Shown here piece by piece: positions 5,539 to 29,764 of a DNA stretch of 30,153 nucleotides (its first letter is position 1; the number at the start of each line of letters is the position of its first letter). The position numbers were made by a program, and so were the translations under genes. The stretch comes from a virus. The notes under the pieces are model-generated. The model was not told where the DNA came from. It ran no database searches and was given only the letters and a program-made list of their open reading frames with translations. The DNA is taken from IMG/VR virus record IMGVR_UViG_3300001533_001348, positions 1 to 30,153 of that record, one strand, 5' to 3'.

Positions 5539-5858
5539 AACGATTAGATAACATTGTAAAGGAAATTTCGGCAATAAAAGAAGAGCAGAGAGACCAGGCA
5601 ACTAAGCTTGACAAGGCTATTCTTGCAATAGTAACACAGCAAACAAGGGAAGAAACAAAACATCTAAGGTGTCGTGGTGAATTTGACGAAAGATACGTAC
5701 TAATAAAAGATGTATCGTCACACTTGGCACAACGAGACAGAGAGACTGCAAGGTCAACAAGACAGGCAGTTGCAACAGCAAGGGATATACTTAATATAGT
5801 TAACTTGGTAATCGTAATCGGTGGAGCGTTAATAGGTTCATACCTATTCCTATTCTAA
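5514..5858 (+). CDS. XhlA-like coiled-coil protein with C-terminal membrane anchor
   Basis: A 114-aa protein. Residues 1-40 form a coiled coil (ILERLDNIVKEISAIKEEQ), the middle is charged, and residues about 92-114 are one membrane span at the very C-terminus (NLVIVIGGALIGSYLFLF). This is the layout of XhlA-type haemolysin/holin accessory proteins of phages, where the soluble part faces the cytoplasm. The ribosome site GAGGT precedes ATG 5514. It ends in a TAATG overlap with the large terminase. With the two small membrane proteins upstream it completes a putative holin set located inside the terminase region. Confidence 0.55.
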   Translation: MSYEQTILERLDNIVKEISAIKEEQRDQATKLDKAILAIVTQQTREETKHLRCRGEFDERYVLIKDVSSHLAQRDRETARSTRQAVATARDILNIVNLVIVIGGALIGSYLFLF

Positions 5859-7333
5859 TGATTGAACTTTCTGAAGCGGAACTGCTAAAGGCTCTACGTG
5901 AGCGTGAGAAGGAACTCCGAATACAGGACTCCGACAACTTCTATACCAAAGGTGGTTTCTGGAGATACTGTAAGTGGTGGGATGACTCTTTTTTCTTTGA
6001 CGCTAAAGAGCCGTTACAACAGCTTGCACAGATACTTGAAGATATGTTTCTTGAAGATAAGTATCAACGCCTTATTATCACGGTCTTCCCACGCTTTGGT
6101 AAGTCGTATATCGTTACCATGCTTGTTACATGGCTGTACAGCATGAACACAGGCAAGCGTTACGGTAAGAAAACGCAGATTATGCGTAACTCTTATGACG
6201 ATGACATGGCAAAGAAGTTTTCACGTGATACGTTGGCAGTTATACGTGACGAAAGGTATCAGCTCAAGTTTCCACACATCAAGATGTCCAAGCGAGTTAA
6301 AGAAATACTTAGCTGGACACTTCAAGGTGCAACAGAATACAGTTACACAGGCTCAGGTCTCGACTCAGGTATTACAGGTAAGGGTGTTAAGGACTTGAGG
6401 ATATTGGATGACCCACACAAGGGTTACAAAGAAGTAATCTCTGAAGTAAAGTCTGAAGCCTCGTGGCAAAGCTATATCTCTACTCACTTGACCCGTGATG
6501 ACCATACGTCAAACTGTAAGGACATTATTATCGGTACTCGTTGGGGTGTCTCCGATATCATAGGTCGTGAACTTGAGTCAAGAAGCCAAGACTGGAGCGT
6601 ATTTAGTTTCCCATTCCTTGACCAGCGTGATAACAGTATATGCGAAGCCATGTGTAGCACCAAAAGAGCAAGAGAAATACGGCAGTTCATGGCAAAGAGT
6701 GGTCAGTACCATATCTTTACGGCTGCGTACCAGTGTGATCCGATAGAAGCCAAAGACGTGCTATTCAAAGAAGGAAGCTTACGTTACTTCAGGAAAAGCG
6801 ACCTATCGAGACCAGAGAAGAAGGAAGAGATTGTTGACAAGTTCATGTTTGTTGACTTTGCGGATAAAGGAACTGACTACTTGTCTGCTCCGATTTGTGT
6901 ACAAGCTGGAGAAACCATTTATGTAGTTGACTGGATATTTACGCAAGACCCTGTAGAGAGTACGCAGAGCAGGATAGTACAGGCTATACAGGACTACAAC
7001 TTGAGCAGATGTATCGTTGAGTCCAATAGTGGTGGCAGAATATTTGCAAATAATATAGAAGAAGAGCTGTCAAGTGACCGTGTTATAGTTGACTCGATAC
7101 CTACTTCTTCCAACAAGGAAACGAGGATACTTGCAAATGCTCCAGCTATAAAAATTAACTTTAGGTTCTTGCAAGAGTCAGAACGAAGCGAAGAGTACGA
7201 ACTTGCAATGAAACAATTGTTCCGATACAACAAGAAAAAGAAGAAGCAGAAAGATGATGCCCCAGACAGCTTGGTAGGTGCTTACCAAATGCTTGAAACT
7301 TCTGGTGAAGAATCCATGCTGTTCAACTATTAA
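5858..7333 (+). CDS. terL: terminase large subunit
   Basis: A 491-aa packaging motor with N-terminal ATPase and C-terminal nuclease. Visible motifs: a Walker A variant 'FPRFGKS' at residues 77-83, Walker B 'LRILDDP' at 180-186, and the coupling motif 'GTRWG' at 226-230. The RNase H-like nuclease has candidate metal-binding acidic residues at D333 (FVDFADKGTD), E388 (IVESNSGG) and D470 (DAPDSLVGA). Length and motif order match phage large terminases. The enzyme would pump DNA into the prohead through the portal and cut it. It starts in a TAATG overlap with the XhlA-like gene. It sits about 4.4 kb after the small subunit, where many phages have the two adjacent. Confidence 0.95.
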   Translation: MIELSEAELLKALREREKELRIQDSDNFYTKGGFWRYCKWWDDSFFFDAKEPLQQLAQILEDMFLEDKYQRLIITVFPRFGKSYIVTMLVTWLYSMNTGKRYGKKTQIMRNSYDDDMAKKFSRDTLAVIRDERYQLKFPHIKMSKRVKEILSWTLQGATEYSYTGSGLDSGITGKGVKDLRILDDPHKGYKEVISEVKSEASWQSYISTHLTRDDHTSNCKDIIIGTRWGVSDIIGRELESRSQDWSVFSFPFLDQRDNSICEAMCSTKRAREIRQFMAKSGQYHIFTAAYQCDPIEAKDVLFKEGSLRYFRKSDLSRPEKKEEIVDKFMFVDFADKGTDYLSAPICVQAGETIYVVDWIFTQDPVESTQSRIVQAIQDYNLSRCIVESNSGGRIFANNIEEELSSDRVIVDSIPTSSNKETRILANAPAIKINFRFLQESERSEEYELAMKQLFRYNKKKKKQKDDAPDSLVGAYQMLETSGEESMLFNY

Positions 7334-7343
7334 AGGTGGATAA

Positions 7344-9233
7344 GTGAAAGACAAAATAATTGTAGCTTTAATGAGTTGTGGTGAGCCTACTACACAGGAA
7401 TCACTCGACAAGTTGAATCAAATGTTTGACGAGGTTGTGTTAGTGGAAGAAGTACCACACTCTAAAGCTATACGTAAATGCTATGAGATAGGTCTTTCAA
7501 GTGACAAGGAATGGCTTTTAATCGCTGGTGCTGACGGTATCCTTTATCCTGAAGCGATGCAAGAGTTTCTTGACACAGCAGAAAATATGGTTGAAGAGAA
7601 AACGTTTCACTTTTCAAGCTATTGTGACGATAAGTTTAGGGTCGGTAATCGTTACGGATGGGGTATCTATAGAACCAAATACCTTGACGTTGTATTAGCT
7701 AACTTGTCGGAGACGGATATCACGCCTGAAGGTATGGCAATGACAAAGACAATTGCACAGGGATACCTTAACCATGTTATACCAATCAAAACAAGCACAC
7801 ACGATTACGGACAGTTGCCTTTTGATGTTTACCGTAAAGGATATATGTGGTCAAGAAGGCTACAAGGAAGTGCAATATCCAACACAACAAAACATTGGTT
7901 GTCAAAGTACAAGGAAGATAAGGACTTCAGGTATTTGCTGGAAGGGTACGGTGACGGCATAAAGAACATTCATCAGGAGTACTTTTGCGACAGCACTTAC
8001 CACAACAGGAATCGAGTCAAGTACCTAATAGAAGACCTTGACAACAAGGAAGACCATGTAGTTACCATGTTCTCTGTTTCCGATTTTGCAGGTTCAGGGT
8101 ATCACTACGCCGAAGCTATCAACCGACACACTAAGTTTAAGGTTAGACAGTTTGTTAGCAGACAGAAAATATCCTGTCCATTCGATGCGGAGTTTGTAGC
8201 TTCTCAGAATCCTGAGTTTTTCCAAGAATGTATGCGACACTCTGATATATTACATCTAAAATGGGACGGTATGCCAATTATCAAGAATGGTCAATTACAC
8301 CTGTACAGGAGAGAGTACGATAACTTTATGTTGGTTATTGGCAACAAAACATACTCCGTTCCTGTTAATCCTGACGCTGGTACTATTGTTACTCATTGTG
8401 GTACGGCATCAAGAAGAGATGAGACACATCCAGTTTACAATAAATGGACAAGACCAAAGACAAGTGAGATTATCAACAACACACATATCAGGACAGCTTT
8501 ATCTCCAGACCTTTGCTATCCTGACCTTAATAATATCTTTACGCCACACGCTATTGATAGTCAGAATGCTCAATACACATGGAAGGAGCGAAAGATACCT
8601 ATTATAGGATGCTATCCCGCAACAAATGACAGGAAGGGTGTTGACCAGTACCTAAAGACCGCACTTAATTACCTTGCAAGTCAAGGGTACAAGTTTCACC
8701 TAATAGAAACCAAAAACATGAGTAACGCAAAGTGTATCGAAGCGAAGAAAGACTTTACTATAATGTTCGACCAAGTCACATCTGCTGGAACGTACGGTCG
8801 CTCTGCTATTGAAGCCATGCAATTTGGTGTACCTGTTATATGTTACATAAGCGAAGAAGCAAAAAGGCAGTCATGTAACGAGATATATCAGAACAGCCCA
8901 GTGCTTAACCCGGGCAATACCGTTGAAGGTATGATAGAACTGCTACGTAACATATTTGACGGCAAGATTAACCTGAAAGAAGTTTCGGTTAAGACTAAAA
9001 AGTATTGTGACGAACTTCACGGTTACCGTGCTTCAGGAAAGCAGTGGGAACAGATTTACAAGGAATTATTAATATTGAAAGAAATCCGCAAGATAAACTA
9101 TGTATGGGCAAACGGTGTTGAGCCAAACTTCAAGGTAATGATACCAAAGAAAAAAAAGACAAGGATTGTTCCTGATGATGAGTTTGATGCCTACAGGAAA
9201 ATAAGAAAGAATGGCATGAGAAGGTACAGGTGA
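7344..9233 (+). CDS. two-domain glycosyltransferase (GT-A plus GT-B)
   Basis: A 629-aa protein starting at GTG 7344 after AAAGGTGGA. Residues 1-230 resemble a GT2-type fold: an N-terminal strand, a variable middle, and 'LLIAGADGILYPEA' at 59-71 in the place of the metal/sugar-nucleotide DxD motif. From about 240 a GT4-type fold begins ('SDFAGSGYHYAEAINRHT'). Its second half shows 'GCYPATNDRKGVD' and the family signature 'GTYGRSAIEAMQFGVPVICY' near 480-500, where a conserved Glu binds the nucleotide-sugar. The last 60 residues are basic. Two glycosyltransferase domains in one chain suggest two sequential sugar transfers. The acceptor is unknown: virion protein, host surface glycan or modified DNA base. 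It overlaps the methyltransferase by GTGA. Confidence 0.85.
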   Translation: MKDKIIVALMSCGEPTTQESLDKLNQMFDEVVLVEEVPHSKAIRKCYEIGLSSDKEWLLIAGADGILYPEAMQEFLDTAENMVEEKTFHFSSYCDDKFRVGNRYGWGIYRTKYLDVVLANLSETDITPEGMAMTKTIAQGYLNHVIPIKTSTHDYGQLPFDVYRKGYMWSRRLQGSAISNTTKHWLSKYKEDKDFRYLLEGYGDGIKNIHQEYFCDSTYHNRNRVKYLIEDLDNKEDHVVTMFSVSDFAGSGYHYAEAINRHTKFKVRQFVSRQKISCPFDAEFVASQNPEFFQECMRHSDILHLKWDGMPIIKNGQLHLYRREYDNFMLVIGNKTYSVPVNPDAGTIVTHCGTASRRDETHPVYNKWTRPKTSEIINNTHIRTALSPDLCYPDLNNIFTPHAIDSQNAQYTWKERKIPIIGCYPATNDRKGVDQYLKTALNYLASQGYKFHLIETKNMSNAKCIEAKKDFTIMFDQVTSAGTYGRSAIEAMQFGVPVICYISEEAKRQSCNEIYQNSPVLNPGNTVEGMIELLRNIFDGKINLKEVSVKTKKYCDELHGYRASGKQWEQIYKELLILKEIRKINYVWANGVEPNFKVMIPKKKKTRIVPDDEFDAYRKIRKNGMRRYR

Positions 9234-9808
9234 CAAGACCACAAGTCGGTGCAGAGTTTTATGACAACCTTTACCGTACAAAGGAGAGCTACAGTCTTAA
9301 TGTTTCAGCACAACAGTCTCCACACGGTGTACTGTATAACAACATTGTGGTGTATTTACGTAATATACCTAATGCAAGGATACTTGACGTAGGTTGTGGA
9401 ACTGGTCAGCTTGCAGAACTTATTATTAGTTCAGGATACAACTATATAAAAGGTATAGATATTTCTTCGGTAGCAATAGAGCTTTCACGTAAAAGGTGTC
9501 CAAAGTACGAAGATAGGTTTCAGTGTGTTAGCATTGAAGATTACGACCACAGCGATGACTACAACACTGCTATCATTTGTGAAGTGTTGGAACATATTGC
9601 AGAAGATATAGCGGTAATAGATTCACTTAAGCCAGGGACACAAGTAGTATTAACAGTGCCAAACTATGACTCTGCTTCACATGTAAGGCACTTTGACGGA
9701 CTCCTGTCAGTAATAAGAAGATACAATAGATTATTAGTTCATTACGGCACTGTAATACATTGTGGAGATACAAGTGAGTTTTACCTTATACATGGCACGA
9801 AGCAATAA
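9230..9808 (+). CDS. class I SAM-dependent methyltransferase
   Basis: A 192-aa protein with the Rossmann-like methyltransferase signature. Motif I is 'ILDVGCGTGQ' at residues 51-60, the acidic adenosyl-binding strand is 'IKGIDIS' at about 73-79, motif IV is 'CEVLEHI' at 117-123, and 'LTVPNYDSASHVRHF' follows at about 141-155. This order is typical of the UbiG/Methyltransf_23-like group that methylates small molecules or sugars. The DPPY/NPPF motif of DNA adenine methylases is absent. The GTG start lies in a GTGA overlap with the glycosyltransferase, so the two are probably co-translated and act on the same substrate, for example O-methylating a transferred sugar. A new promoter follows the gene. 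Confidence 0.85.
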   Translation: MTRPQVGAEFYDNLYRTKESYSLNVSAQQSPHGVLYNNIVVYLRNIPNARILDVGCGTGQLAELIISSGYNYIKGIDISSVAIELSRKRCPKYEDRFQCVSIEDYDHSDDYNTAIICEVLEHIAEDIAVIDSLKPGTQVVLTVPNYDSASHVRHFDGLLSVIRRYNRLLVHYGTVIHCGDTSEFYLIHGTKQ

Positions 9809-9892: not shown

Positions 9893-11317
9893 ATGCAAGA
9901 GAAAAAGAAAGATATAAGTGTTTATCGGCAAAAGAAAGCTGACGACAAGGTGTATGCCTTTTCGTTTGCAGTACAAGGAAACAATACTCTGTCAAAGAGC
10001 TTGTCTTCTAATATTCCAGCAACGGATACGGCAGTGTTCCAGTATTTGAAAGACCAGTCCTATGTAAAACCACCTTATGACCCTTCTATTATTACTGGTT
10101 GGTTGAAAGCTAATACGACACACTCTGCGTGTATCAACTCAAAGACATCTATGATTGCTGGAAATGGTATCGAGATATTAGCTCCTGAGAGTGAACAGAC
10201 TGATGCGTTCAAGCGTTTCCTTGAGAACCCTAACGAGATTTACGAGCAGACACTTGAAGAAATTATCTACTCTTTAGTGATGAACGGTGAGATATTTAAT
10301 AATGCTTATATGCAGGTACGTAAAGCAGGTAGCAAGGTTGCACTCTACAATGTAAACGCAAAGAACATCTTTATCAGACCTTTGTATGATGCGAACGATA
10401 GACCGATTGCTGGTACGGTTGAAAAGTATCTTTACATTTGCAGATACAACACACCATTTGGTTTAAAGGACACCTATCAGTACAATCCGTACCGTGGTAC
10501 AATGAAAGCTACTGACACAAGGTTGTACCATATTAAAGGTGCTTCTGTTAACAGTGACTTTTACGGAGAGCCTACGTACACGTCAATAGAGCAGTCGATA
10601 CTTGAGAGCCGTTATGTATCAGATTTTAACATAAATTTTTTCAGCAACAACGCACAGCCTAATTACGTGATTGCTGTTTCAGGTGTCAAGATGAGTAAGA
10701 AGGCAAAGGAAGCGTTTGTTACTGAGATGCAAGAGAAGCTAAAAGGTATCGAAAACCAGCATCGTGGTATGGTTATGATGTTCGATAACGAAAAGGCTAA
10801 CATTACTATTAAGGAAATGAGCAAGTCCTACGATGAATCATTCTCGAAGCTCAAGAAGGACATAGCTGAAGTTGTTTCAACTGCTCACCTGATGCCAATG
10901 GAGTTGTTACCGCAAAGTGGTAGCTCTAACTTTGGTGGTGGCACGGCTACGATTGGAGCGTTAAAGGTTTTCCTTGAAATGATTGTCAAGCCACGACAAA
11001 GGTTCTACGAGAACAATATTAACAGGCTTATGAAATCTTTGTTTGGCTTTGACCCAAAGATACGCCTACGTGGTATCAAGATTACTACTGAAAAAGATGA
11101 CGCTATTGTTCACGTAATGTACCACAAGCAAGGTATTCTAACAACTAACGAGATACGTGAAGAGCTGAAGAAGAAAGAGATGCCAATATCGGACACAACA
11201 GTTAATGATAGTGATAGTGATAGTCCTAACGTAACAGACGAAGGTGAACCACGTGCTGGAATGGACACAAGTAGCACAAGCCGTGAGCTAACCGATACTA
11301 ATATAGATAAATTCTAA
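9893..11317 (+). CDS. portal protein
   Basis: A 474-aa protein forming the twelve-subunit ring at the prohead vertex through which DNA enters. The sequence follows the PBSX/HK97-type portal family: an early 'YDPSIITGWLKANTTHSACIN' helix, 'LVMNGEIFNNAYMQV' in the clip/wing region, 'YGEPTYTSIEQSI' and 'ISTAHLMPME'-like residues (VVSTAHLMPMELL) ahead of the stem, and 'FLEMIVKPRQRFYENNINRL' near the end. The C-terminus is a disordered tail rich in Ser, Thr and Asp with a short GATAGT microsatellite (near 11205-11222) coding Asp-Ser repeats. Ribosome site GAAGGAA. It sits directly upstream of the protease gene, as expected. Confidence 0.9.
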   Translation: MQEKKKDISVYRQKKADDKVYAFSFAVQGNNTLSKSLSSNIPATDTAVFQYLKDQSYVKPPYDPSIITGWLKANTTHSACINSKTSMIAGNGIEILAPESEQTDAFKRFLENPNEIYEQTLEEIIYSLVMNGEIFNNAYMQVRKAGSKVALYNVNAKNIFIRPLYDANDRPIAGTVEKYLYICRYNTPFGLKDTYQYNPYRGTMKATDTRLYHIKGASVNSDFYGEPTYTSIEQSILESRYVSDFNINFFSNNAQPNYVIAVSGVKMSKKAKEAFVTEMQEKLKGIENQHRGMVMMFDNEKANITIKEMSKSYDESFSKLKKDIAEVVSTAHLMPMELLPQSGSSNFGGGTATIGALKVFLEMIVKPRQRFYENNINRLMKSLFGFDPKIRLRGIKITTEKDDAIVHVMYHKQGILTTNEIREELKKKEMPISDTTVNDSDSDSPNVTDEGEPRAGMDTSSTSRELTDTNIDKF

Positions 11318-11329
11318 GTGGAGGTATAA

Positions 11330-12289
11330 ATGCCGTTAAGTGAACTTGAAAAGAAAAAGAGACGACTCAAAGATATTGAAGTTGATTTTGTCTCTTTAGT
11401 TAAAAGACCTGCTACAGGTAAGAGTTTTTTCCTATGGAAAAGCAGGGATAAGTTACAGGAAGACGTAGTAGAAACAAAGAAAGCTATGGTTAGCCTTATT
11501 AAAGGTAATAGTGAAGCCAAGAGAATCCTTTACGGCGTTGTGTACTCGCCTGATGAAGTTGACAAGCAAGATGACTTTATGGGTGCAGAGCTTATAGAAA
11601 AGGCTGCTCATGACTTTATTATCAACTATCGTAACATTGACCACGAGCATGACTTCATGGAAGGCAAAGGTGTTGTAGTAGAAAGCTATATTGCTCCAAT
11701 GGATATGCTGATAAACGAAGACTCAATATCAAAAGGTTCATGGGTGCTTGCCGTTAAGGTTACGCCTGAGATGTGGGATGAGTTTAGCAAAGGCAACATT
11801 ACCGGTTTTAGTTTAGCTGGTAAAATATTTGATAGCGAATATATCAGGACAGAGGAAGAGGAAGCTAATCTTGATGAGAATAGTTATGGTATTTTCTGGT
11901 CTTTAAGGGCTAATGAAAATGTAGAAAAAAACGAAACAAAACAAGAAGATGAGGTAAACATGGAAGAGTTACAAAAACTGACCGAAACGGTTGCAGGGTT
12001 GCAGAAGTCTCTTGAAGATGTTAATACCAAACTTGAAGGTATTATATCCAAAGAAGACATTGCGAAAAGTATTGACGAAAAGGTTAACGTCGAAGAGATT
12101 ACGAAGTCTATTAAAGAAGGCATCGATACTGAAGTGGCTAATCTTACCAAAACCATTCAGGATACACTGAATACAAAGGTAGAAGAGCTGGAAAAGAAGT
12201 TCACCGAAAATGACCAGCCAGGAAATACAGGCGACAATCCTGCTGGAATAGAAGTAGTCGAGACTTCATTTACTACGGAGGCAAAATAA
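11330..12289 (+). CDS. XkdF-type prohead protease with scaffold domain
   Basis: A 319-aa protein preceded by GGAGG. Residues about 60-195 match the XkdF/S78-type phage serine protease pattern: 'LYGVVYSPDEVDKQDDFM', 'NIDHEHD' (candidate catalytic His105 or His107), 'GSWVLAVKVT', 'ITGFSLAGK' (candidate Ser161) and 'SYGIFWSL'. Residues about 205-300 are a charged coiled coil (MEELQKLTETVAGLQKSLEDV), which would act as the internal scaffold. The protein probably guides capsid assembly and is then cut away. It ends in a TAATG overlap with the capsid gene. An in-frame internal start at 11960 may give a free scaffold. The catalytic residues are assigned by position only. Confidence 0.8.
   Translation: MPLSELEKKKRRLKDIEVDFVSLVKRPATGKSFFLWKSRDKLQEDVVETKKAMVSLIKGNSEAKRILYGVVYSPDEVDKQDDFMGAELIEKAAHDFIINYRNIDHEHDFMEGKGVVVESYIAPMDMLINEDSISKGSWVLAVKVTPEMWDEFSKGNITGFSLAGKIFDSEYIRTEEEEANLDENSYGIFWSLRANENVEKNETKQEDEVNMEELQKLTETVAGLQKSLEDVNTKLEGIISKEDIAKSIDEKVNVEEITKSIKEGIDTEVANLTKTIQDTLNTKVEELEKKFTENDQPGNTGDNPAGIEVVETSFTTEAK
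11960..12289 (+). CDS. possible nested scaffold protein (internal start)
   Basis: ATG 11960 is codon 211 of the protease gene and falls exactly where the protease domain ends and the coiled coil begins. GAGG sits at 11951-11954, five bases before it. Translation from here would give 109 residues made only of the coiled-coil scaffold. The arrangement copies lambda C/Nu3, where a scaffold is made from an internal start of the protease gene. Inference from position and ribosome site only; the full-length product may do both jobs. Confidence 0.4.
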   Translation: MEELQKLTETVAGLQKSLEDVNTKLEGIISKEDIAKSIDEKVNVEEITKSIKEGIDTEVANLTKTIQDTLNTKVEELEKKFTENDQPGNTGDNPAGIEVVETSFTTEAK

Positions 12290-13749
12290 TGGCACAGAAA
12301 TTTAACAAAACACATCTTGGCTTGGTCAAGAATTTAGCAGAAAGAGGAAACGCAGAAGCTATATCTCTTTTGAACAAGCACTTCCCTGACAAGGATGTCT
12401 TGCAGAAGAACATTGGCGACTATGCAATGGATGAAAGGCTTGTTGACCAGAAGGCACAAGAGCTTATCATGTATATGTGGCAGAACACACCAATCATGAA
12501 CGAGTTCTCGCATGAGTACACTCGTGACCGTGTAACCAAAGTACCGTTAGGCATCACCGACAAAGAGTTCTTGGTATCTACCGAGAGACTTGGCAGACAG
12601 CTTACCGCTGGCGAGAAGCAGGGGTTAGGTGCAATCAACTCGTTTGATGTATTCTGTGAAGAGATTGAAGCACAGTGGGACATCAAGATTGGTGACCTGA
12701 TTTACAACCTTGGTAATCCTAACTACATGGATCAACTTGAGAAGGCAAAAATTGCAGAGATTGGTAACGACGTTGCAAGGCTTACCGCTTACGGTGAACA
12801 CCGTGATGCTACAAGTTTCAGCAGATTGCTTTACGGTTTCCCGCACAGACTGCGAACCATGAATGGAAAGAACACATTCTCTACAAGTTCTCAGGAGCTT
12901 TTAGGAAAGAACGGTTTCTTAATGACTCCTGTTAAGTTGGATGCAGGTGCTTCTCCTGACGCTGGTGATACTCTTACAATAATGAACAGAATGATTCGTG
13001 AAACCGAGACACAGCATTTGAACGGAGCTTCATTTATGATGAGTCGTGAAGACGCTAACAACTATGCTGACATGAGAGCTATCCCAGTTGTTGCCGGGAC
13101 TAACGAGTTTGTTGGTGTTAACGTTGCTTTACGTGAAACTTGGTTAACTAATGGTACAGTACCGCCTTTCAAGGGTTACCGTGTAGTTCACTGCGAACAC
13201 ATGAGACCTTTGAGAACTAATGGTGTAATCGTACTTGGCAACCTGAAGAACCTTACTATTGTAAGTCACACTGAAGCAAGAGTGACTAAAGAGTACAAAG
13301 CAAGACTCGATACTGGTGGAAACGGATACGAGTTCACTTATGTATTCTACATGAACCTTGCAATTAAACGACCTTATGCTATGACCGTTGCGTTCAGGAA
13401 CGCTACCGTTGAGACTCCAGTTGTAATGGCTGGTGCTGGTGCGAAACCTGAAGATGGAGAAGTTGAAGCTGGTGGATCAATCAGTGTTAGCGCTGCTGGT
13501 GGAACAGCTACCGTTTATCCTTACACCGACACCGTTGGTGCAGAGATTTACTATGCTGCTCTTGCTGACGTTGCTGACCTTGATGACTATGCTACCGCTG
13601 TTGATGCTGTTGACGTAACTACGTTCAAGATTGACAATGACGACCCATCTGTTGACTTGGCAGCAGGCACTTGGGTGTTCCGTTCATTCAAGGATGGAAA
13701 ATTAACACAGTCGGCTAAAAAGACAATTACTGTTACAGACGGCTTATAA
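12289..13749 (+). CDS. major capsid protein with C-terminal Ig-like domain
   Basis: A 486-aa protein immediately after the protease, with the expected size and position for the HK97-fold shell protein. Residues 1-70 are a helical N-arm. About 80-375 carry the capsid core with 'NEFVGVNVALRETW', 'GYRVVHCEHM', 'GVIVLGNLKNLTIV' and the closing 'YVFYMNLAIKRPYAMTVAF'. Residues about 378-486 form a separate Ala/Val/Thr/Asp-rich beta domain ('GGSISVSAAGGTATVYPY', 'AAGTWVFRSFKDGKLTQSA') like the Ig-type or chitobiase-type add-ons found on phage surfaces. That domain would stand out from each capsomer. A stable hairpin lies just after the stop codon. The capsid call rests on context and size; the extra domain on pattern. 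Confidence 0.85.
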   Translation: MAQKFNKTHLGLVKNLAERGNAEAISLLNKHFPDKDVLQKNIGDYAMDERLVDQKAQELIMYMWQNTPIMNEFSHEYTRDRVTKVPLGITDKEFLVSTERLGRQLTAGEKQGLGAINSFDVFCEEIEAQWDIKIGDLIYNLGNPNYMDQLEKAKIAEIGNDVARLTAYGEHRDATSFSRLLYGFPHRLRTMNGKNTFSTSSQELLGKNGFLMTPVKLDAGASPDAGDTLTIMNRMIRETETQHLNGASFMMSREDANNYADMRAIPVVAGTNEFVGVNVALRETWLTNGTVPPFKGYRVVHCEHMRPLRTNGVIVLGNLKNLTIVSHTEARVTKEYKARLDTGGNGYEFTYVFYMNLAIKRPYAMTVAFRNATVETPVVMAGAGAKPEDGEVEAGGSISVSAAGGTATVYPYTDTVGAEIYYAALADVADLDDYATAVDAVDVTTFKIDNDDPSVDLAAGTWVFRSFKDGKLTQSAKKTITVTDGL

Positions 13750-14941: not shown

Positions 14942-15730
14942 ATGGCACAAGATTTTTCATTCGATTATGGGCAAGACGTAAAGTTCCTTGACTACGAGGT
15001 GTACCTACGTCTCCATGATGATGAATTGAGACCGTTGATACCTGTTGGTCAGTGTACTGCCGATTCGATTAACAATACATACGAAGGTGAAACGCAGGTA
15101 AGGCTTAACCGAAGTGGCGATATTGACGTTAACTCAATGGGTACGATGTCTTTTAACATAGCACACTTGAAAGTTGACAACATCAACGAACTACAGTCAC
15201 ACGACAAGAAAACGTTCGATGTTTGTCTTGAGTCGATAGGAACAGCAGAAGGTGCATCAACTAAACGATACATGATAGTACGAGACGTTATCATGAACTA
15301 TCAGCAGAACTTTGGTGGTGGTGATGTTGAAACACTGCCTGTTGTATTCACCAAGAAAGTAAACTCACCAGTAGATTGGGACACAGTCACTAACACAAAG
15401 CCTACTGACCATGTGGATTATACGGCAACAAATCTCGAAGTTGGCGACACTACACTTGATGCAGGGACTACCTATGATATAGACTTAACTTGGGATTTAT
15501 CTGAAGATATTAAAGAGACTGATACTCAGGAGATATGGGTAAGAGAATATTCTTCAGGAAGTTGGAAAGACTGGGCAGTTGAAACGAATTCTATTGCCCC
15601 AACAGCGGTCACCTCTACTCTTAACTATGACTTTAATACCATAGACGAGATAGAAATAGCTGTTCGGGTCAATACTGGGAGTCTATTAAGATATTCGAAC
15701 ATAGTAACGGTGGAAACACCAATAACATAA
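14942..15730 (+). CDS. major tail tube protein, long paralog with FN3/Ig-like domain
   Basis: A 262-aa protein. Residues 1-158 align closely with the next gene (FDYGQ.VK...Y.VYL.LHDD, VGQC..DS..NTYEG, NFGGG.V.TLPV.FTKKV.SP). This is a compact beta domain of the size and position expected for a tail tube subunit. Residues about 159-262 are an extra beta-sandwich of fibronectin-III or Ig type ('TTYDIDLTWDLSED', 'EIWVREYSSGSWKDW', 'EIEIAVRVNTGSLLRYSN'), comparable to the surface domain on lambda gpV. The tube would enclose the tape measure and carry DNA during infection. Ribosome site AAGGATG. Which paralog is the major subunit cannot be told from sequence. Confidence 0.65.
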   Translation: MAQDFSFDYGQDVKFLDYEVYLRLHDDELRPLIPVGQCTADSINNTYEGETQVRLNRSGDIDVNSMGTMSFNIAHLKVDNINELQSHDKKTFDVCLESIGTAEGASTKRYMIVRDVIMNYQQNFGGGDVETLPVVFTKKVNSPVDWDTVTNTKPTDHVDYTATNLEVGDTTLDAGTTYDIDLTWDLSEDIKETDTQEIWVREYSSGSWKDWAVETNSIAPTAVTSTLNYDFNTIDEIEIAVRVNTGSLLRYSNIVTVETPIT

Positions 15731-15750: not shown

Positions 15751-16233
15751 ATGGCACAAGTTTTCGATTTCGATTACGGACAGAACGTTAAACAGATACA
15801 CTATGATGTGTACCTTAAACTGCACGACGATGATGATTTCGTTCAGGTTGGGCAGTGTATTACTGACTCCGTGTTAAATACCTACGAAGGTGAAGATACG
15901 GTTGAATTAAACATTTCCGGGGACATCAATGTAAGCTCTCGTGGAACTATTGCGTTTGACATTGCACATCTTACTACTGATAACATTAATGCAATGAGAG
16001 GGCACGACAAGAAAAGCTTTGATGTATGCCTAAAGACAGTTGACCCTGTAGAAGAGAACGGTACTGACCACATTTACATGTCAGTCAGAGACGTAATCTA
16101 CAATTACCGGCACAACTTTGGTGGCGGAGAAGTGAACACACTTCCTGTATCCTTTACAAAGAAAGTTGCTTCACCAGACCAGTGGGATACAATAGCTATT
16201 ACACCACCTGACGACCACCCAGACTCCACCTAA
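15751..16233 (+). CDS. tail tube protein, short paralog
   Basis: A 160-aa paralog of the preceding gene, preceded by AGGAG. It has only the tube core and stops just where the other gene's extra domain begins. The stop codon lies inside a perfect 17-bp tandem repeat (16218-16251), so the truncation point coincides with a slipped-strand duplication. One tube could contain both subunits, with the long form decorating the outside. Alternatively this gene may be a truncated copy that still folds. Confidence 0.6.
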   Translation: MAQVFDFDYGQNVKQIHYDVYLKLHDDDDFVQVGQCITDSVLNTYEGEDTVELNISGDINVSSRGTIAFDIAHLTTDNINAMRGHDKKSFDVCLKTVDPVEENGTDHIYMSVRDVIYNYRHNFGGGEVNTLPVSFTKKVASPDQWDTIAITPPDDHPDST

Positions 16234-16282: not shown

Positions 16283-16678
16283 ATGTTAACAGTCGATAAA
16301 TTAGCAAGGGTTAAAAGGGTTCTTGATGACCTTGATATGCGTGACATCCCAGTTAGCGATGACCCTGAGAAATTGGCAAACGCCTTTATCTTGGGGTCAC
16401 TGCACAACGAAGAAACATTCAACGAGTTCTTCGCTGTCCTGACAGGTAAGAAGGACAACTACTACGTCAAGCCGTACACGGAGGTTGTTGGCATTGCCAT
16501 TGATTTTTTTACCAATACGGAAAGTCAATTGAAAGAATTAATCGTGACAATGTTAGGCGACAAGAAAGTGCATTACGACATGGAGGTAGAGTCAGTGAGA
16601 AACCTTCAGATAAGAGCGATGACGGAAGCGATGAAGGCTCAGAAGGAAACCACTACCTCGAAATCTGTACAAGATTAA
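16283..16678 (+). CDS. tail assembly chaperone (G-type)
   Basis: A 131-aa, helical protein with ribosome site AAAAGGAG. It sits between the tail tube and tape measure genes, where the tail assembly chaperone of siphophages lies. Residues about 60-95 ('VVGIAIDFFTNTESQLKELIVTML') form the core, and the C-terminus is a Lys/Thr-rich linker. The chaperone would coat the tape measure during tail building. The -1 frame beneath the gene is open from 16504 to 16944, so part of the translation probably shifts into the next reading frame to make a longer G-T fusion. Confidence 0.65.
   Translation: MLTVDKLARVKRVLDDLDMRDIPVSDDPEKLANAFILGSLHNEETFNEFFAVLTGKKDNYYVKPYTEVVGIAIDFFTNTESQLKELIVTMLGDKKVHYDMEVESVRNLQIRAMTEAMKAQKETTTSKSVQD
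16504..16510 (+). other. candidate slippery heptamer for -1 frameshift
   Basis: T TTT TTT at 16504-16510 is in the correct phase (X XXY YYZ) for the G-type reading frame, whose codons here are Asp, Phe, Phe, Thr. A TGA in the -1 frame at 16501-16503 lies just before it, so this is the earliest point at which a shift could succeed. The protein made just after this site looks less natural than that made after about 16640, so the true site may be later. No canonical heptamer is visible there. Confidence 0.35.
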
Positions 16679-16728
16679 GCAAGAACGGTATTAATCCTAA
16701 CCAGTATCCTTATGAAGATGCTGTTTAC

Positions 16729-16944
16729 ATGAGCGAAGATATTGTTTCGCAGGACATCAGGGAGGGGATATTCAACATCCTCTCCTATTTGCATGACGAG
16801 ACAGACGTAACAAAGGCGATAAAGTCGGTTGCACAGAAAGTCAACTATGCTCCAGCACTAAATGCAATTTACAAGGATGCGTTGTCTTTGTACGAATCAC
16901 AGAAGGCACGTGAAAAAGCAAAAGCAAGGATGAAAAAGAAATAA
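16729..16944 (+). CDS. tail assembly chaperone T-type extension (-1 frame)
   Basis: Counting from its first ATG this is 71 aa, but that ATG has no usable Shine-Dalgarno site (GAAG eleven bases away is the best). The frame is open upstream to 16504, overlapping the G gene in the -1 phase, with no ATG, GTG or TTG before 16729. The residues just upstream ('EGNHYLEICTRLSKNG', 'INPNQYPYEDAVYM') read like real protein. The downstream part is helical and basic (DVTKAIKSVAQKV, AREKAKARMKKK). This is the pattern of lambda G/GT: the T part binds the tape measure and is made only as a fusion. It ends in a TAATG overlap with the next gene. Confidence 0.65.
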   Translation: MSEDIVSQDIREGIFNILSYLHDETDVTKAIKSVAQKVNYAPALNAIYKDALSLYESQKAREKAKARMKKK

Positions 16945-17507
16945 TGGATAGAAGCAAAGTCGATCAATTACTATATGATACCTTTGCTTCTTTTTCTGCA
17001 TGGTTCGAAGAGAAGCTGAAACACCGTAAACAAAGTGCGTCTGGAAACCTTGCAAGGTCGTTTCAGGTGGAGTTTAAGCGGACAGGCATCATTGCAACTG
17101 ACTTCGAACTATTCACTGACTCACCATACTATGAAGAGCGAGAAACAGGTCTTTGCAAGACAGTAACGACAGAGCGTATAATAGAATGGCTGGAGCAAAA
17201 AAACGAACTACAAGATGCTGGTCTATCTCCTGGAACAATAGAGGCAATGGCTCCAAGGATATCTGGAATCATTAACAATAAGCAGTGGATAATAGATGGA
17301 ACTTACGGTCGTGTCCTCAAAACAGGCGGTACGGTAAGACACTCAACAGGAATAGGTGCAGTGGCACGACACGGATTTAAGTACTACGTAAGAAGAGCAG
17401 AAGACATTTTAGCACAACAAGCACTTGATATGATTGACAAGGAACTGCTTGGATTGAAAGAAAAGGTAACAAACATAGATACCAACCTTGACATTGGGGA
17501 CATATAA
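16944..17507 (+). CDS. possible tail completion protein (HK97 gp10-like)
   Basis: A 187-aa protein between the chaperone and the tape measure, with TAATG overlaps on both sides. The early part, 'SASGNLARSFQVEFKRTG', 'FELFTDSPYYEERETG', resembles the gp10-like tail completion family, where a 'GxLxxS' helix is followed by strands and a 'YYxxxExG' turn. The middle is helical with a Pro-Gly turn (LSPGTIEAMAPRISG), and the end is a helix (EDILAQQALDMIDKEL). Gp10-type genes are usually found before the tail tube, so the position is odd. The assignment is tentative. Confidence 0.5.
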   Translation: MDRSKVDQLLYDTFASFSAWFEEKLKHRKQSASGNLARSFQVEFKRTGIIATDFELFTDSPYYEERETGLCKTVTTERIIEWLEQKNELQDAGLSPGTIEAMAPRISGIINNKQWIIDGTYGRVLKTGGTVRHSTGIGAVARHGFKYYVRRAEDILAQQALDMIDKELLGLKEKVTNIDTNLDIGDI

Positions 17508-20500
17508 TGGCTGAGAAGAGAACAATACATCAGGTAAAAGCGGTCGGCAAAGAACTTGACGAGATTATAAAGAAGCTGAAGACAGCAACTAAAGCACAGG
17601 ATGAATTCTCTGCTGGTGACGAAATAACAAAACTAATGAAACTGGTTCACCAGTTAGGCTTGTCCTACGAAGAGATGCGTAAGAAGATTGAATCGGTCAT
17701 GTTACAGATTGACAATCTTGGCAAGATACAGACAGACCTTAACAAGACACAGCAGGAACGTAACCAGCTTACTGACCAAGAAGTCTCTTCTATTAACACA
17801 CAAATTGATGCTATCAAGGCAAGACTTGAGCTTGAGTTAAAGGGGAAAACCTCTGCATCAGAACGTGTCCAGACATCAAACCAACTCAACGAAGCAGAAC
17901 AGCGTAACCTTGAAACAAAGAAACAGGAAGTTGCTGTTGACGAAAAAGCGAACAGTATTGCCGAGCAACGACAGGAACAACAAAGACAGATACTTCAAAG
18001 AGACCGAGAGCAAGCACAAATAATTGAACAGCAGAATACTGCTTATGCCAAGATAGTTGAACTAAAGAGACAGGCTAAGGATTTAGGTGTTGAAGAAGAG
18101 TCGGCACAGATGATACGTGAATACCAGCGTATATCTGAAGACCTTATTGCAACCGAGAAAACATCTACTGACGAATACCGTAGAAAGCTTGAGTTGCAGA
18201 AGAACCTTCTTGCGGACATTAAAGAACATTTTAACCATACAAAGAACATACAAAAAGAAAATGAGAAAGCAGTCCAGCAACAACAAAATATGCTTGTCAC
18301 CGAGAAACAACGCCTTAAGGTGTTAGGTGAGTTTGAACAAAAGACTTCTGACTTAAGTACAGTACTTTCAAAGGTTACACAATTGCCTATTGATATGGAA
18401 TCGTTGAGCCAATACGAAGGCGTCACCGAAGCCTTAAAGGAACAAGAAGTTTTACAGGAAAAGCTTGCAAGGCTTGACGAGTACAGGAAAGGCATTAAAG
18501 ACGGAAGTATTAAAACGGAACAGGAAATTAACCTTGTTCAGGAAGAGTTGCGTGACACTGCTACCGATATTAATAAACAAACACAGAGTCATTTGAACCT
18601 TATATACGATATACACAAGTTAGACAAGGAACGTATTGCAACGGTTGAGGCTATACGTGACGCTGGTTTAGGTGAGAATGCTGCACAAAAGGCAAACGAA
18701 GAATACAAGAAAATGATTAACAATGTCTCGCAAGTTGACCAGAAGCAGAGACAAGTTGCTGTGAGTGCGGAAAAGAACTCAACTGCTTGGCGTGAAGTTA
18801 AAGCAAATGTTAAGCAGGCAAATCACTACCTTGATATGACAGCTTCACATACAGCAAGGGCACAACGTGCAGGCAGAGGCTTCTCAGAGACGCTACGTGA
18901 TGCGTTTCGTGAAGCGTTCACATTAGAGAAGGTTGCTAACAGGATAGCATTCGTTATTACCGCTAAACTGTCTTACGATGCGTTCAAGTATATGCACAGG
19001 GGTTTGCGTGAAGGGATACGGCTTGCAATGGAGTTTGAAGATACATTGGCAAGAGTGTATTCACTCTTAGGTGAAGATGACAGTCCAGCACTTAGGTCGG
19101 AGTTTGCTGAAGCGTCAAGGTCTTCAATGGTTAGGTATGCTCAAACAATTGAGACAACTAATAGAGCTTTATATGATATTATTTCAGCACAAATAGACAC
19201 TAACCATGCTACTGAAGTGTTGAACAGTACAATGCGGTTAGCTGTTGCAGAGTTTACGGATGTTAAGATTGCGACCGATGCTGTTACAACTACACTTAAC
19301 GCTTACAATATGGAAGCAAGTAGGTCTGCTGACGTAACCGACCTGTTATCAACCATTGTAACGCAAGGTAAAACAACGCTTCAAGACCTTGCTCCTGTAT
19401 GGGGTAGAGTAGCTGCTGTTGGCGGTATGTTTAACGTGCAGATAGAAGACTTAGCTGCTTCTGTTGCAATTATGACACAACAAGGCTTGAGTGCAGGTGA
19501 GGCAACTACAGCTTTAAGGCAATTACTTTTAACTATAATGAATCCTACGGACAAGGCAAAACGTGCAATTGAACAATACGGTCTTGAAATGGATGCAGCT
19601 ACACTGCGTACCAAAGGATTCGGCTACATAATAGAACAGGTTGCAAAGATACAGGATGAAGAAGTTATAACTACACTTGCTTCGTCAAGACGTGGGGTAA
19701 TGGCGTTTGCCGCTGGTCTGTCCGACACGGAGCGTTATGCAAGAACATACAATGCAATGTTAGACAGGACAGGTGAGACACAGCGTAAATTCGGTGAACT
19801 TGTAGAAACAGATAGTTTTAGAATGGAACAAATGAAGGCACAGTTTGCTGACGCTGCTCTTGTATTAGGACAGGAAGTGATGCCGTCTTTGACACTTGGC
19901 ATAGGTGCTATGAGAGACTTTGCTAAAGGTATGTCAACTCTCATTGGCTTGTTAGGTCAAGGCACGGTTGCCATGCTTGCTTTTAGTGCGATTGCTGTAA
20001 AACTAACACCAATGTTACTTGCCAATCCATTTATAGGGACAGCTGCTATTCTTGCTACGCTTATTGGTCTTGTTGGTGCATATAGGAATAGAACTAAAGA
20101 GTTAGTTGAGATTACAAAGCAATTAAGAGACGAATACATCGAGACCATGCGTATCGAACAATCACAACTTCGCTCAAGGCGAGAAATGCTTGTGCGTATG
20201 GTTGAACTTGAAGGGCAAAGCAACAGGAACGCTGAAGCAGATGCGGAGCTTGCACAGATACAGGAAGCGTTAGGTGAAGAACTGCATGGCACGGCAGACG
20301 CAATGGAAAGAGTGAATGAAGAGATGTCAAGGGTTGATACCGAAGAGGCAATTCTTTCATTCAAGTTATATCGTGAAGAGATTGCTAAAACTCGTGAAGA
20401 TGTTGTAGATTTTATCCGTGACATACCTAAGTCTTTCCGAGCAATAGAGAGAGAAACAAGAAGTATAAGACCTTCTGCTATACTAATGGAAGAGTTAAGT

Positions 20501-22732
20501 GAAGCATTCGACAAGAGGGCTGGCATTTTTACCGCCACTCCATTCGTTGGAGATATAGGTGAACTGACAACCGATGAGCAAATAAAAAGGCTTGAAGAGT
20601 TTTCAGGAGTTGTATCGCAAGCAATAAAGAATGTTGAAGAAGCAATACGGTCAGAACGTAGAGCGTCAAGGGCACAAGGAAGGGCACTGGAAGATTCAAA
20701 AAGCCTGAATGCAGCAATATCCCAAACTATAGGACTACTTAAAGACGAACAAGAAGCAAGTGCAGGATATCAAGAGCAATTGGAGCGTGAAGAAGTTGCA
20801 CGAAAATCTATACTTGCTCTTGCAGGTCGTGGAACTGATAACATATACGATACCGCTGAACAATACAAAGAAGTTACGGAACTCGTTACACTGTTAGAAG
20901 AAAGACTTGAAGGGAATCAGGAAGCACAGGATAAACTTAACAATATAACTGCCTTCGGGTTACGAGAAGGAACAGAAGCTTATAAGCTGCTGCTTGGCTT
21001 AGCACTGCAATACAGCGAAGCAATTGGCGAAACACCTGAACCACCTGTTCCGCCTGAATATGCCCCCGCTGAAATAGCGAAACGTCGTGAAGCATTAGAA
21101 GAACAGCTTGCCATTGAAACGGACATGGCAGCAGGTAGAGCAAAAGAAGAGATTGAACTTGAAAAGATACGGCGTGAACATGAGAAGATACTTAAGCAAG
21201 TTAGAGCGATAAATGAAAGCAAGCTACCGATAGGATACCTTAAGGAATTTGAAGGTATCTCGCATGAACTGTTCAGGTTACAGAAGAATAGGCTTGAGAC
21301 ACAAAAAGAGTTAAACGAAGCAAATGTTGAGCTTGGCAAAATACTGAACCAACAGAAGGTAGTAGCAGAAGCTATTGAGTTAGGCTTCGAGATTGACGCT
21401 AAAATGCCAACAGAAGAAGATGCAAAAGCGATTTACGATCGATTAATAAAAGCACAGAAAGCTGCTGGTGAAGATACAATTGCGACTGAACTTGAGCTAT
21501 TTAAGGCGTTAGAAGAAATAAGGCGACAAGGTCTGTCAGACTTTGAACGTTTCGAGGAAGACCAAGACGAAGCATGGAAGCAACGTAATGACGCAGAACA
21601 GCTACGGTTACAGTTGGGAATTAAGCAACTCAAGGACTACTATGGTGAACAATTTGACGTTACAGGACAGTCTTATGTTGACCTGAAAAAACTTCTCGAA
21701 GACCAAGACACTACGGAGTTCCAGCGACTTGTAATACATGTTGAGCTTGACCGTAGGGGATACGAACAAGAGCTACGTGATATACAGGATATGTTCACGC
21801 AGTTTGAAAAGGATATGCTTGACCGTGTCATTTCTTCGCCATTACCTTCACAAATCGTACAGATGATGTCAGGCTTCTCTGAACGTGCCGAACTGAACAA
21901 GAAGTTATCGGAGTTGACTGAAGGAACTGAAGCTTACTTGCAAGTTGAAAAAGCATTACAACAAGACGCTTACCAACGCAGAGTACAAGCGGAACAATAC
22001 ATTGCAAGCCAATTACAGGATATATGGAACTCTTATCTACAGATACGTAAACAGCAGATACAGGAAGAGTATGACGAAGCTGCAAGTAGGATACAGAGAC
22101 GGTACGAGCTTGAGTTCAGAAGCAAAACTTGGCTCGATGCTGAAATGGCAAAGCTCGACGAAGAGAAGGCTAAACGTGAAAAGAAGTTGCGTCAACAGGA
22201 ACAAGTAGCTGCTCTTGCTTCCGCTACCATGAACATTGCACTCGCTATTACAAAGGTTTTACACAATCCTATACTAACAGCAATAGTAGCTTCTTTAGGT
22301 GCGATACAGCTTGGCATTATTGCTTCACAAAGCTTTGCTCAAGGCGGTTACACTGGAAAGTCTAACATGAAGCGTGATAAGTCAGGAGAGCGACCTGTCG
22401 GAACAGTTCACGAAGAAGAGTTTGTGTTTGACAAGAAAGCAACTAAAGGTAATGTCGGACTGCTTTACACGATACGAGATATCCTTGCTGGAAAAGGAAG
22501 CGGTGTCAAGAGACCACAGATTAGCGGTAGTTACGCTACAGGCGGTTACACAGGTAAAGCGGCAGCAAGTAATGTAACAGTCGGTGACGGATGGAGCAAG
22601 TCAGAGATACGTGAGCTATTGAATGCAATTAAGGAAGACAGAATATACATTGAAACAAAAACAATTGACCCTGTAAAAGTTTCAAAGCTTGCGGATAGAG
22701 GTAGAGCAACAAGGGAAAGGGTTGGCATATAA
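17507..22732 (+). CDS. tape measure protein
   Basis: At 1741 aa this is the largest gene. It sets tail length and is ejected ahead of the DNA. Residues 1 to about 430 are nearly continuous coiled coil rich in Gln, Glu and Lys. About 500-800 form the phage minor tail domain ('MEFEDTLARVYSLLG', 'AAVGGMFNVQIEDLAASVAI', 'SAGEATTALRQLLLTIMNP'). Hydrophobic segments occur at about 818-860 and 1565-1608, possible membrane-inserting parts. Coiled coils fill 860-1560. The C-terminus has 'FAQGGYTG' and 'GTVHEEEFVF', common near the ends of tape measures. At about 0.15 nm per residue the tail would be roughly 260 nm. Its place after the chaperone is as expected. Confidence 0.92.
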   Translation: MAEKRTIHQVKAVGKELDEIIKKLKTATKAQDEFSAGDEITKLMKLVHQLGLSYEEMRKKIESVMLQIDNLGKIQTDLNKTQQERNQLTDQEVSSINTQIDAIKARLELELKGKTSASERVQTSNQLNEAEQRNLETKKQEVAVDEKANSIAEQRQEQQRQILQRDREQAQIIEQQNTAYAKIVELKRQAKDLGVEEESAQMIREYQRISEDLIATEKTSTDEYRRKLELQKNLLADIKEHFNHTKNIQKENEKAVQQQQNMLVTEKQRLKVLGEFEQKTSDLSTVLSKVTQLPIDMESLSQYEGVTEALKEQEVLQEKLARLDEYRKGIKDGSIKTEQEINLVQEELRDTATDINKQTQSHLNLIYDIHKLDKERIATVEAIRDAGLGENAAQKANEEYKKMINNVSQVDQKQRQVAVSAEKNSTAWREVKANVKQANHYLDMTASHTARAQRAGRGFSETLRDAFREAFTLEKVANRIAFVITAKLSYDAFKYMHRGLREGIRLAMEFEDTLARVYSLLGEDDSPALRSEFAEASRSSMVRYAQTIETTNRALYDIISAQIDTNHATEVLNSTMRLAVAEFTDVKIATDAVTTTLNAYNMEASRSADVTDLLSTIVTQGKTTLQDLAPVWGRVAAVGGMFNVQIEDLAASVAIMTQQGLSAGEATTALRQLLLTIMNPTDKAKRAIEQYGLEMDAATLRTKGFGYIIEQVAKIQDEEVITTLASSRRGVMAFAAGLSDTERYARTYNAMLDRTGETQRKFGELVETDSFRMEQMKAQFADAALVLGQEVMPSLTLGIGAMRDFAKGMSTLIGLLGQGTVAMLAFSAIAVKLTPMLLANPFIGTAAILATLIGLVGAYRNRTKELVEITKQLRDEYIETMRIEQSQLRSRREMLVRMVELEGQSNRNAEADAELAQIQEALGEELHGTADAMERVNEEMSRVDTEEAILSFKLYREEIAKTREDVVDFIRDIPKSFRAIERETRSIRPSAILMEELSEAFDKRAGIFTATPFVGDIGELTTDEQIKRLEEFSGVVSQAIKNVEEAIRSERRASRAQGRALEDSKSLNAAISQTIGLLKDEQEASAGYQEQLEREEVARKSILALAGRGTDNIYDTAEQYKEVTELVTLLEERLEGNQEAQDKLNNITAFGLREGTEAYKLLLGLALQYSEAIGETPEPPVPPEYAPAEIAKRREALEEQLAIETDMAAGRAKEEIELEKIRREHEKILKQVRAINESKLPIGYLKEFEGISHELFRLQKNRLETQKELNEANVELGKILNQQKVVAEAIELGFEIDAKMPTEEDAKAIYDRLIKAQKAAGEDTIATELELFKALEEIRRQGLSDFERFEEDQDEAWKQRNDAEQLRLQLGIKQLKDYYGEQFDVTGQSYVDLKKLLEDQDTTEFQRLVIHVELDRRGYEQELRDIQDMFTQFEKDMLDRVISSPLPSQIVQMMSGFSERAELNKKLSELTEGTEAYLQVEKALQQDAYQRRVQAEQYIASQLQDIWNSYLQIRKQQIQEEYDEAASRIQRRYELEFRSKTWLDAEMAKLDEEKAKREKKLRQQEQVAALASATMNIALAITKVLHNPILTAIVASLGAIQLGIIASQSFAQGGYTGKSNMKRDKSGERPVGTVHEEEFVFDKKATKGNVGLLYTIRDILAGKGSGVKRPQISGSYATGGYTGKAAASNVTVGDGWSKSEIRELLNAIKEDRIYIETKTIDPVKVSKLADRGRATRERVGI

Positions 22733-29250: not shown

Positions 29251-29376
29251 TTATTTCTCCTTTTCCTTTGGTTCTAACTTGTTTACCATCCTTATTACTT
29301 CAAATGCTTCCGCTAAATGCAGATTGCCTTGGAAACCTCGTAACATTGCAAGCTGCCAAGGTATTCCCATGTTCAT
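29251..29376 (-). pseudogene. displaced C-terminal end of the PIG-L deacetylase
   Basis: The frame ending in TAA at 29251-29253 encodes 'LAMLRGFQGNLHLAEAFEVIRMV' and then a Lys/Glu-rich tail. An 'RG.Q....AEaF.viR' pattern is typical of the C-terminus of PIG-L/LmbE deacetylases. It has no start of its own at a sensible place and lies in the +1 frame relative to the catalytic part. Its stop codon is separated by one base from the next gene's ATG, as if this were the original gene end. It is therefore read as the true C-terminal part of the neighbouring deacetylase, now out of frame. Confidence 0.6.
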
Positions 29377-29764
29377 GCTCTGTCTTGTGGTCTTGATGGA
29401 TATCGCTACGTGATGGCACAAACACAATGTCAGGTTTAAGAATACGATTTCGGTCACAAAAGTATTCTAATATTTCCTGCCGGTTCTCTGGAAAGTGTCG
29501 GACACGTAAGTTTCTTGTGGTAAAACCAGTACTGCCAATACCAAGACATTTAAGAGCGTTACTGTGTTCTTGAACAATAGTGTCTTCGAATATTCCTTCA
29601 GGTAGTGACTCTGCACAGAATGATAGCGAAACATGGTACACGTCAGTGTGTCCTTCACGTATCATCCTTGCAATTGTAGCACCACAACCAAACTCCACGT
29701 CGTCAACGTGTGCTCCTATAACCAACACCTTGCACTTACGGAAAGCACTATTTAGTTTCAACAT
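29300..29764 (-). CDS. PIG-L / LmbE-type deacetylase, frameshifted after catalytic motifs
   Basis: A 154-aa frame. 'KVLVIGAHVDDVEFGCGATIARMI' near residues 12-35 holds the zinc motif (H19, D21, D22), 'VSLSFC' follows, and 'PDIVFVPSRSDIHQDH' at about 111-126 supplies the second HxDH motif. The family removes acetyl groups from N-acetylglucosamine-type sugars. After residue 130 the frame reads an unlikely 'EHGNTLAACNVTRF' and stops at 29300, while the family's C-terminal pattern appears in the +1 frame. The whole is short for the family (usually more than 200 aa), so an internal deletion plus frame change is likely. The start at 29764 overlaps the upstream gene by 17 bases. Confidence 0.75.
   Translation of the reverse strand: MLKLNSAFRKCKVLVIGAHVDDVEFGCGATIARMIREGHTDVYHVSLSFCAESLPEGIFEDTIVQEHSNALKCLGIGSTGFTTRNLRVRHFPENRQEILEYFCDRNRILKPDIVFVPSRSDIHQDHKTEHEHGNTLAACNVTRFPRQSAFSGSI

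Follow-up and report, generated by a model that had tools for sequence, protein, structure and literature searches.

Genes at the locus and the open -1 frame

The window, by which we mean the whole 30153-base virus record analyzed here, has the gene order of a tailed phage. Its head-side module includes a terminase (5858-7333), followed by a portal gene (9893-11317), an XkdF-type protease gene (11330-12289) and a capsid-like gene (12289-13749). The interval between the terminase and portal genes (7344-9808) holds a methyltransferase gene and a region weakly matching a glycosyltransferase profile (PF00534, E 0.017). Two tandem paralogs resembling major tail proteins (14942-15730 and 15751-16233) were assigned to the tail tube by position; they are 61% identical, and the last ~100 residues of the first have no counterpart in the second. 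Downstream of these lies ORF1 (16283-16678, + strand, 131 aa), which has a Shine-Dalgarno sequence, AAGGAG, 6 nt upstream and is labelled here a gpG-like tail assembly chaperone on the basis of its position and architecture. The coding score of ORF1 is typical of the window genes up to its end. It is followed by an ORF in the -1 frame (the T frame), by a 187-aa gene (16944-17507) and by the tape measure gene (17507-22732), which was recognized by tape measure profile matches. The 187-aa gene begins on the T stop codon (TAATG), and its single profile match, to PF07342 (TscT, E 0.004), is below threshold. The full order is therefore tail tube (two paralogs), ORF1, -1 ORF, 187-aa gene and tape measure, with a pair of small ORFs between the tail tube and tape measure genes and one extra gene intervening.

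The -1 frame of ORF1 carries ten or eleven stop codons in its first 74 codons and none from 16504 to 16944 (+ strand), leaving an open frame of 146 codons that is immediately preceded by a TGA at 16501-16503. The initial annotation had described this opening, together with the absence of a start codon before 16729 and of a ribosome site at the ATG found there, and all three observations held on re-analysis. A reading-frame check reproduced the open frame; its first ATG, GTG or TTG is the ATG at 16729-16731 (+ strand); and this codon, 50 nt past the ORF1 stop, has no Shine-Dalgarno sequence and does not overlap the preceding stop, making it an unlikely start. The T frame is thus -1 to ORF1, overlaps it and has no effective start of its own. 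Three of the ten GGAGG strings on the + strand of the window fall in the chaperone region (16480, 16582 and 16761), none of them positioned to initiate the -1 frame. Internal initiation from the GGAGG at 16582 was considered and rejected because there is no start codon for it in the -1 frame; the GTG at 16595, at a good spacing from this string, is in frame 0.

AlphaFold2, given the -1 ORF as a single sequence, returned an all-helical model in which residues 1-38 are poorly predicted and pLDDT is mostly 70-85 from residue 45 (~16636). On this model the frame would comprise a linker part (about 16511-16635, + strand) and a T-like helical domain (about 16636-16941, + strand). The ATG at 16729 is residue 76 of the -1 ORF and lies within predicted helix 70-96, ~90 nt downstream of the point where the predicted helical region begins. 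A helix spanning this residue argues against initiation at 16729, if weakly, as the prediction comes from one sequence. The ORF1 model, also all helical and of low confidence, has helix 65-76 ending at the heptamer T_TTT_TTT (hereafter T7). Fold searches, run with models of low confidence (pLDDT 57-68), gave no match and are meaningless at that pLDDT. According to the initial annotation, the shifted frame does not look protein-like before about 16640. This agrees with the predicted fold, in which order sets in at ~16636, but codon usage is not diagnostic: the -1 coding score is low over 16504-16599, is about as low over 16651-16725 (in part past the ORF1 stop) as over 16504-16650, and climbs near 16690. 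Since linkers are expected after a slip, the onset of protein-like sequence at ~16640 does not locate the slip.

Openness of the -1 frame and the candidate slip site

In the 25 other genes of the window (8442 codons), the -1 frame meets a stop every ~10 codons. Only one of 878 -1 runs in these genes was as long as 58 codons, and none of 133 gene tiles of 57 codons was stop-free in the -1 frame. Synonymous recoding of the same ORF1 peptide left no -1 stop over 16505-16675 with P=0.006; the corresponding values were P=0.036 for 16505-16597 and P=0.26 for 16598-16675, so that most of the surprise is carried by the stretch right after T7. The -1 codon score of 16505-16642 likewise exceeded that of stop-free synonymous draws (P=0.007). 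Chance alone is an unlikely source of a 57-codon -1 opening beneath ORF1. Judged by openness alone, with the geometry prior left out, our simulations would favour T7 as the point of entry, by a factor of roughly 30 to 90, over a position at 16600 or beyond. Openness statistics from a single sequence are modest evidence, and -1 openings of 40-61 codons were seen in six cases inside other genes.

The first codons of the open frame coincide with T7 (16504-16510, + strand), which is the best candidate for a -1 slip site and probably the true one, albeit in an unusual geometry. Its phase, X_XXY_YYZ relative to ORF1, was verified as the initial annotation had it. It is a slippery heptamer in phase within the overlap, it allows perfect re-pairing of both tRNAs, and the run occurs only once on the + strand of the 30 kb window; in-phase canonical heptamers make up ~0.26% of codons. 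Two adjacent Phe codons can by themselves give rise to T7. U_UUU_UUU belongs to the H_HHU_UUY class, reported to be among the efficient ones in E. coli, and shifts at >0.10% without stimulators (PMC4066793); it was weaker than A_AAA_AAG in older constructs (PMC5009743). One extra U in the run (or two lost) is the sole change there that yields the long product, and a +1 shift at T7 (or one lost U) was discarded because it gives only 82 aa.

Stimulatory structures or Shine-Dalgarno sequences are common in -1 frameshifting and are not obligatory. Neither was found at a working distance of T7: RNA folding gave no stable fold downstream (z 0.98 and 0.62), and the nearest GGAGG (16480-16484, + strand), 19 nt upstream, is probably too far away to stimulate. 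The distance to the ORF1 stop is also abnormal, at 165 nt: the three systems used as yardsticks below have 15, 24 and 3 nt, and published sets average 26-36 nt (PMC10885494). Nearness of the slip to the 3' end of G is typical of the G/GT family and not strictly required; here neither T7 nor the rival site discussed below (69 nt from the stop) lies near that end. Slippage at T7 would drop 55 ORF1 residues (77-131) from the fusion, and the stretch 16511-16678 (+ strand; 55 ORF1 codons plus the stop) would be read in both frames.

Comparison with known G/GT systems

A -1 slip that lets one message encode a pair of tail-assembly helper proteins is ordinary among tailed phages, and what is unusual here is the geometry, not the mechanism. 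ORF1 and the -1 ORF occupy the positions of lambda G and T, and lambda gpG/gpGT shares with the window the order tail tube, G, T, tape measure and a -1 shift into an overlapping T frame (PMC5009743). Lambda slips at G_GGA_AAG, 15 nt from the G stop and with a 20-codon overlap, compared with T_TTT_TTT, 165 nt and 57 codons in the window; unlike lambda, the window has the extra 187-aa gene between T and the tape measure gene. In the Lactococcus phage TP901-1, whose architecture rather than chaperone proteins we compared, gpG and gpT (orf43/44) are joined at G_GGA_AAG, 24 nt from the stop, with a 13-codon overlap. The annotated ATG of its T ORF lies 38 nt beyond the G stop (50 nt in the window), yet T depends on the slip, and altering the slip site blocks tail formation (PMC4493119). 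The 20-odd residues that follow the slip in TP901-1 are rich in charged and polar residues and may represent a linker.

A prophage of Aneurinibacillus thermoaerophilus has head genes syntenic with those of the window (TerL 34%, portal 22% and XkdF-type protease 42% identity) and, like the window, a -1 G/T pair that precedes the tape measure gene. This pair slips at A_AAA_AAG, 3 nt from the stop, and its G and T have no detectable homology to those of the window. Among phage records, the closest portal matches were those of the methanogen virus PhiF3 (25%; Methanobacterium virus, the closest annotated one) and of large Streptomyces phages. The module order of PhiF3 is similar, and its small genes before the tape measure gene show no similarity to those of the window. 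Overall, identity between the head genes and their nearest relatives is ~22-42%, the terminase being closest to those of Bacteroidota and Aneurinibacillus prophages.

Neither ORF1 nor the -1 ORF gave a convincing sequence match in Pfam, PHROGs or PDB, and the chaperone label therefore stands on position and architecture. No homolog of either was found in searches of IMG/VR, GTDB genomes and phage records. Viral contigs were scanned with ORF1, ORF2, the major capsid protein and TerL as queries, together with two TerL alignments, a tail-tube alignment and a tail-tube motif; these and the genome scans yielded either nothing or kin at the level of TerL, 26-35% identical apart from one short match at 40%. 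Tblastn of the window proteins against the fetched loci revealed no homolog of ORF1 or the -1 ORF apart from one 21-residue match at chance level, and tblastn against phage records gave no match to the chaperone proteins. Genome searches in two phyla produced two weak chance-level matches, the first of which had no window homolog in its surroundings. A lead to PHROG 11972 (E 0.044) went nowhere, and when 160 records were scanned blindly for -1 extensions, shadow ORFs swamped the result and the approach was abandoned.

The architecture of ORF1 and the -1 ORF matches that of G/GT chaperones. Taking all sites and mechanisms together, we put the probability that a -1 frameshift produces a G/GT chaperone pair here at roughly 0.87. 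The fusion of tail chaperones proposed in the initial annotation is also our best reading, in which the chaperone identity derives from gene order and architecture. We infer that ORF1 would act as the gpG-like chaperone and that a minority of the ribosomes translating it would slip one base back and read on to 16944, probably through tandem re-pairing of two Phe-tRNAs on T_TTT_TTT. The frequency of such slippage would set the ratio of the two products. The longer one would be a gpGT-like protein of 220 residues, in which G residues 1-76 are followed by a linker of ~43 residues and a ~102-residue T domain. If lambda is a guide, G may coat the tape measure and GT may recruit the tail tube protein.

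If T7 is the true site, the frameshift in this tail-chaperone pair would occur a long way before the G stop. GT would then contain T and only part of G, with 55 codons read in both frames, and the arrangement would have implications for the question of which G segment binds the tape measure. Cases of this type could escape annotation tools that look for the slip close to the stop; for PRFect, distances over 30 nt have been named as one likely cause of misses (PMC10885494). Otherwise, the locus would be one more instance of a mechanism that is very common.

Alternative explanations

The alternative that survives best retains the fusion and moves the slip downstream, to A_AAC_CTT (16600-16606, + strand) or another weak site in 16598-16675, perhaps aided by the GGAGG at 16582-16586 (+ strand); we regard it as possible but doubtful. 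The product would contain ~107 G residues, a short linker rich in S, D, G and E (KPSDKSDDGSDEGSEGN) and the T domain. A_AAC_CTT is in phase and, at 69 nt from the ORF1 stop, closer to the normal geometry; slippage there would give a tidy linker, and the -1 residues encoded from 16598-16642 outscore synonymous recodings (amino-acid score, P=0.008). Shine-Dalgarno stimulators of frameshifting are known from dnaX and IS911, and the GGAGG, 13 nt upstream of A_AAC_CTT, has a spacing near theirs; it may be an internal stimulator of this kind or a chance occurrence. The heptamer fits the 'threetwotwo' class (XXXYYZZ) listed by PRFect (PMC10885494), but this class arises by chance at 0.32% of codons. 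Moreover, the tetramers prone to slip in E. coli do not include A_AAC and the tRNA for CTT is unable to re-pair on CCT (PMC4066793), no significant RNA structure lies downstream, and a late slip would leave 16505-16597 open by luck (P=0.036). A fusion at a site outside the X_XXY_YYZ class, for example at A_AAC_CTT with its internal Shine-Dalgarno sequence, would mean that a tail chaperone uses a non-canonical -1 shift of the bacterial type, which we consider unlikely.

The undescribed non-canonical slip that had been suggested near the gene end, at AAGGAAAC (16644-16650), was rejected. No tRNA re-pairing is possible on this heptamer, which is better called a Shine-Dalgarno-like string, and a slip at this point would leave unexplained both the 46 stop-free -1 codons upstream (P about 0.01) and their codon score, which is better than in synonymous draws (P=0.007).

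It appears improbable that the second protein (71 aa) is produced on its own, initiating at the ATG at 16729 or at some non-standard start further upstream, with chance accounting for the open -1 frame. The rise of the -1 coding score near 16690 would fit a separate protein, and other starts in the window also lack a strong Shine-Dalgarno sequence, several of them overlapping the previous stop. The ATG at 16729 has neither signal, however, and initiation there would cut the predicted helical region, while the openness beneath ORF1 (P=0.006) would have to be fortuitous.

Slippage of RNA polymerase rather than of the ribosome on T7, adding a U to some transcripts, would give the same fusion, exactly the 220-aa product, and transcriptional slippage has been given as part of the cause of A7/T7 underrepresentation in enterobacteria (PMC4066793). 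Seven Ts are nevertheless fewer than the runs usually cited for this process (Tn, n > 8; PMC3711429), and we consider it very improbable.

Least probable of all is that one fused ORF was split at ~16600 to 16690, either by an indel introduced during sequencing or assembly or by natural mutation: codon usage changes frame near 16680, the virus record is single and without a second copy, and toward its end the PIG-L gene at 29300 continues in a different frame, but ORF1 codon usage is normal up to its own stop, a two-frame organization is the rule for tail-chaperone genes, and the other long structural genes of the window are intact. The PIG-L deacetylase gene itself (29251-29764, - strand) matches PF02585 with E 1e-12; its likely C-terminal continuation (AEAFEVIR) sits in another frame, possibly through frameshifting, decay or sequence error.
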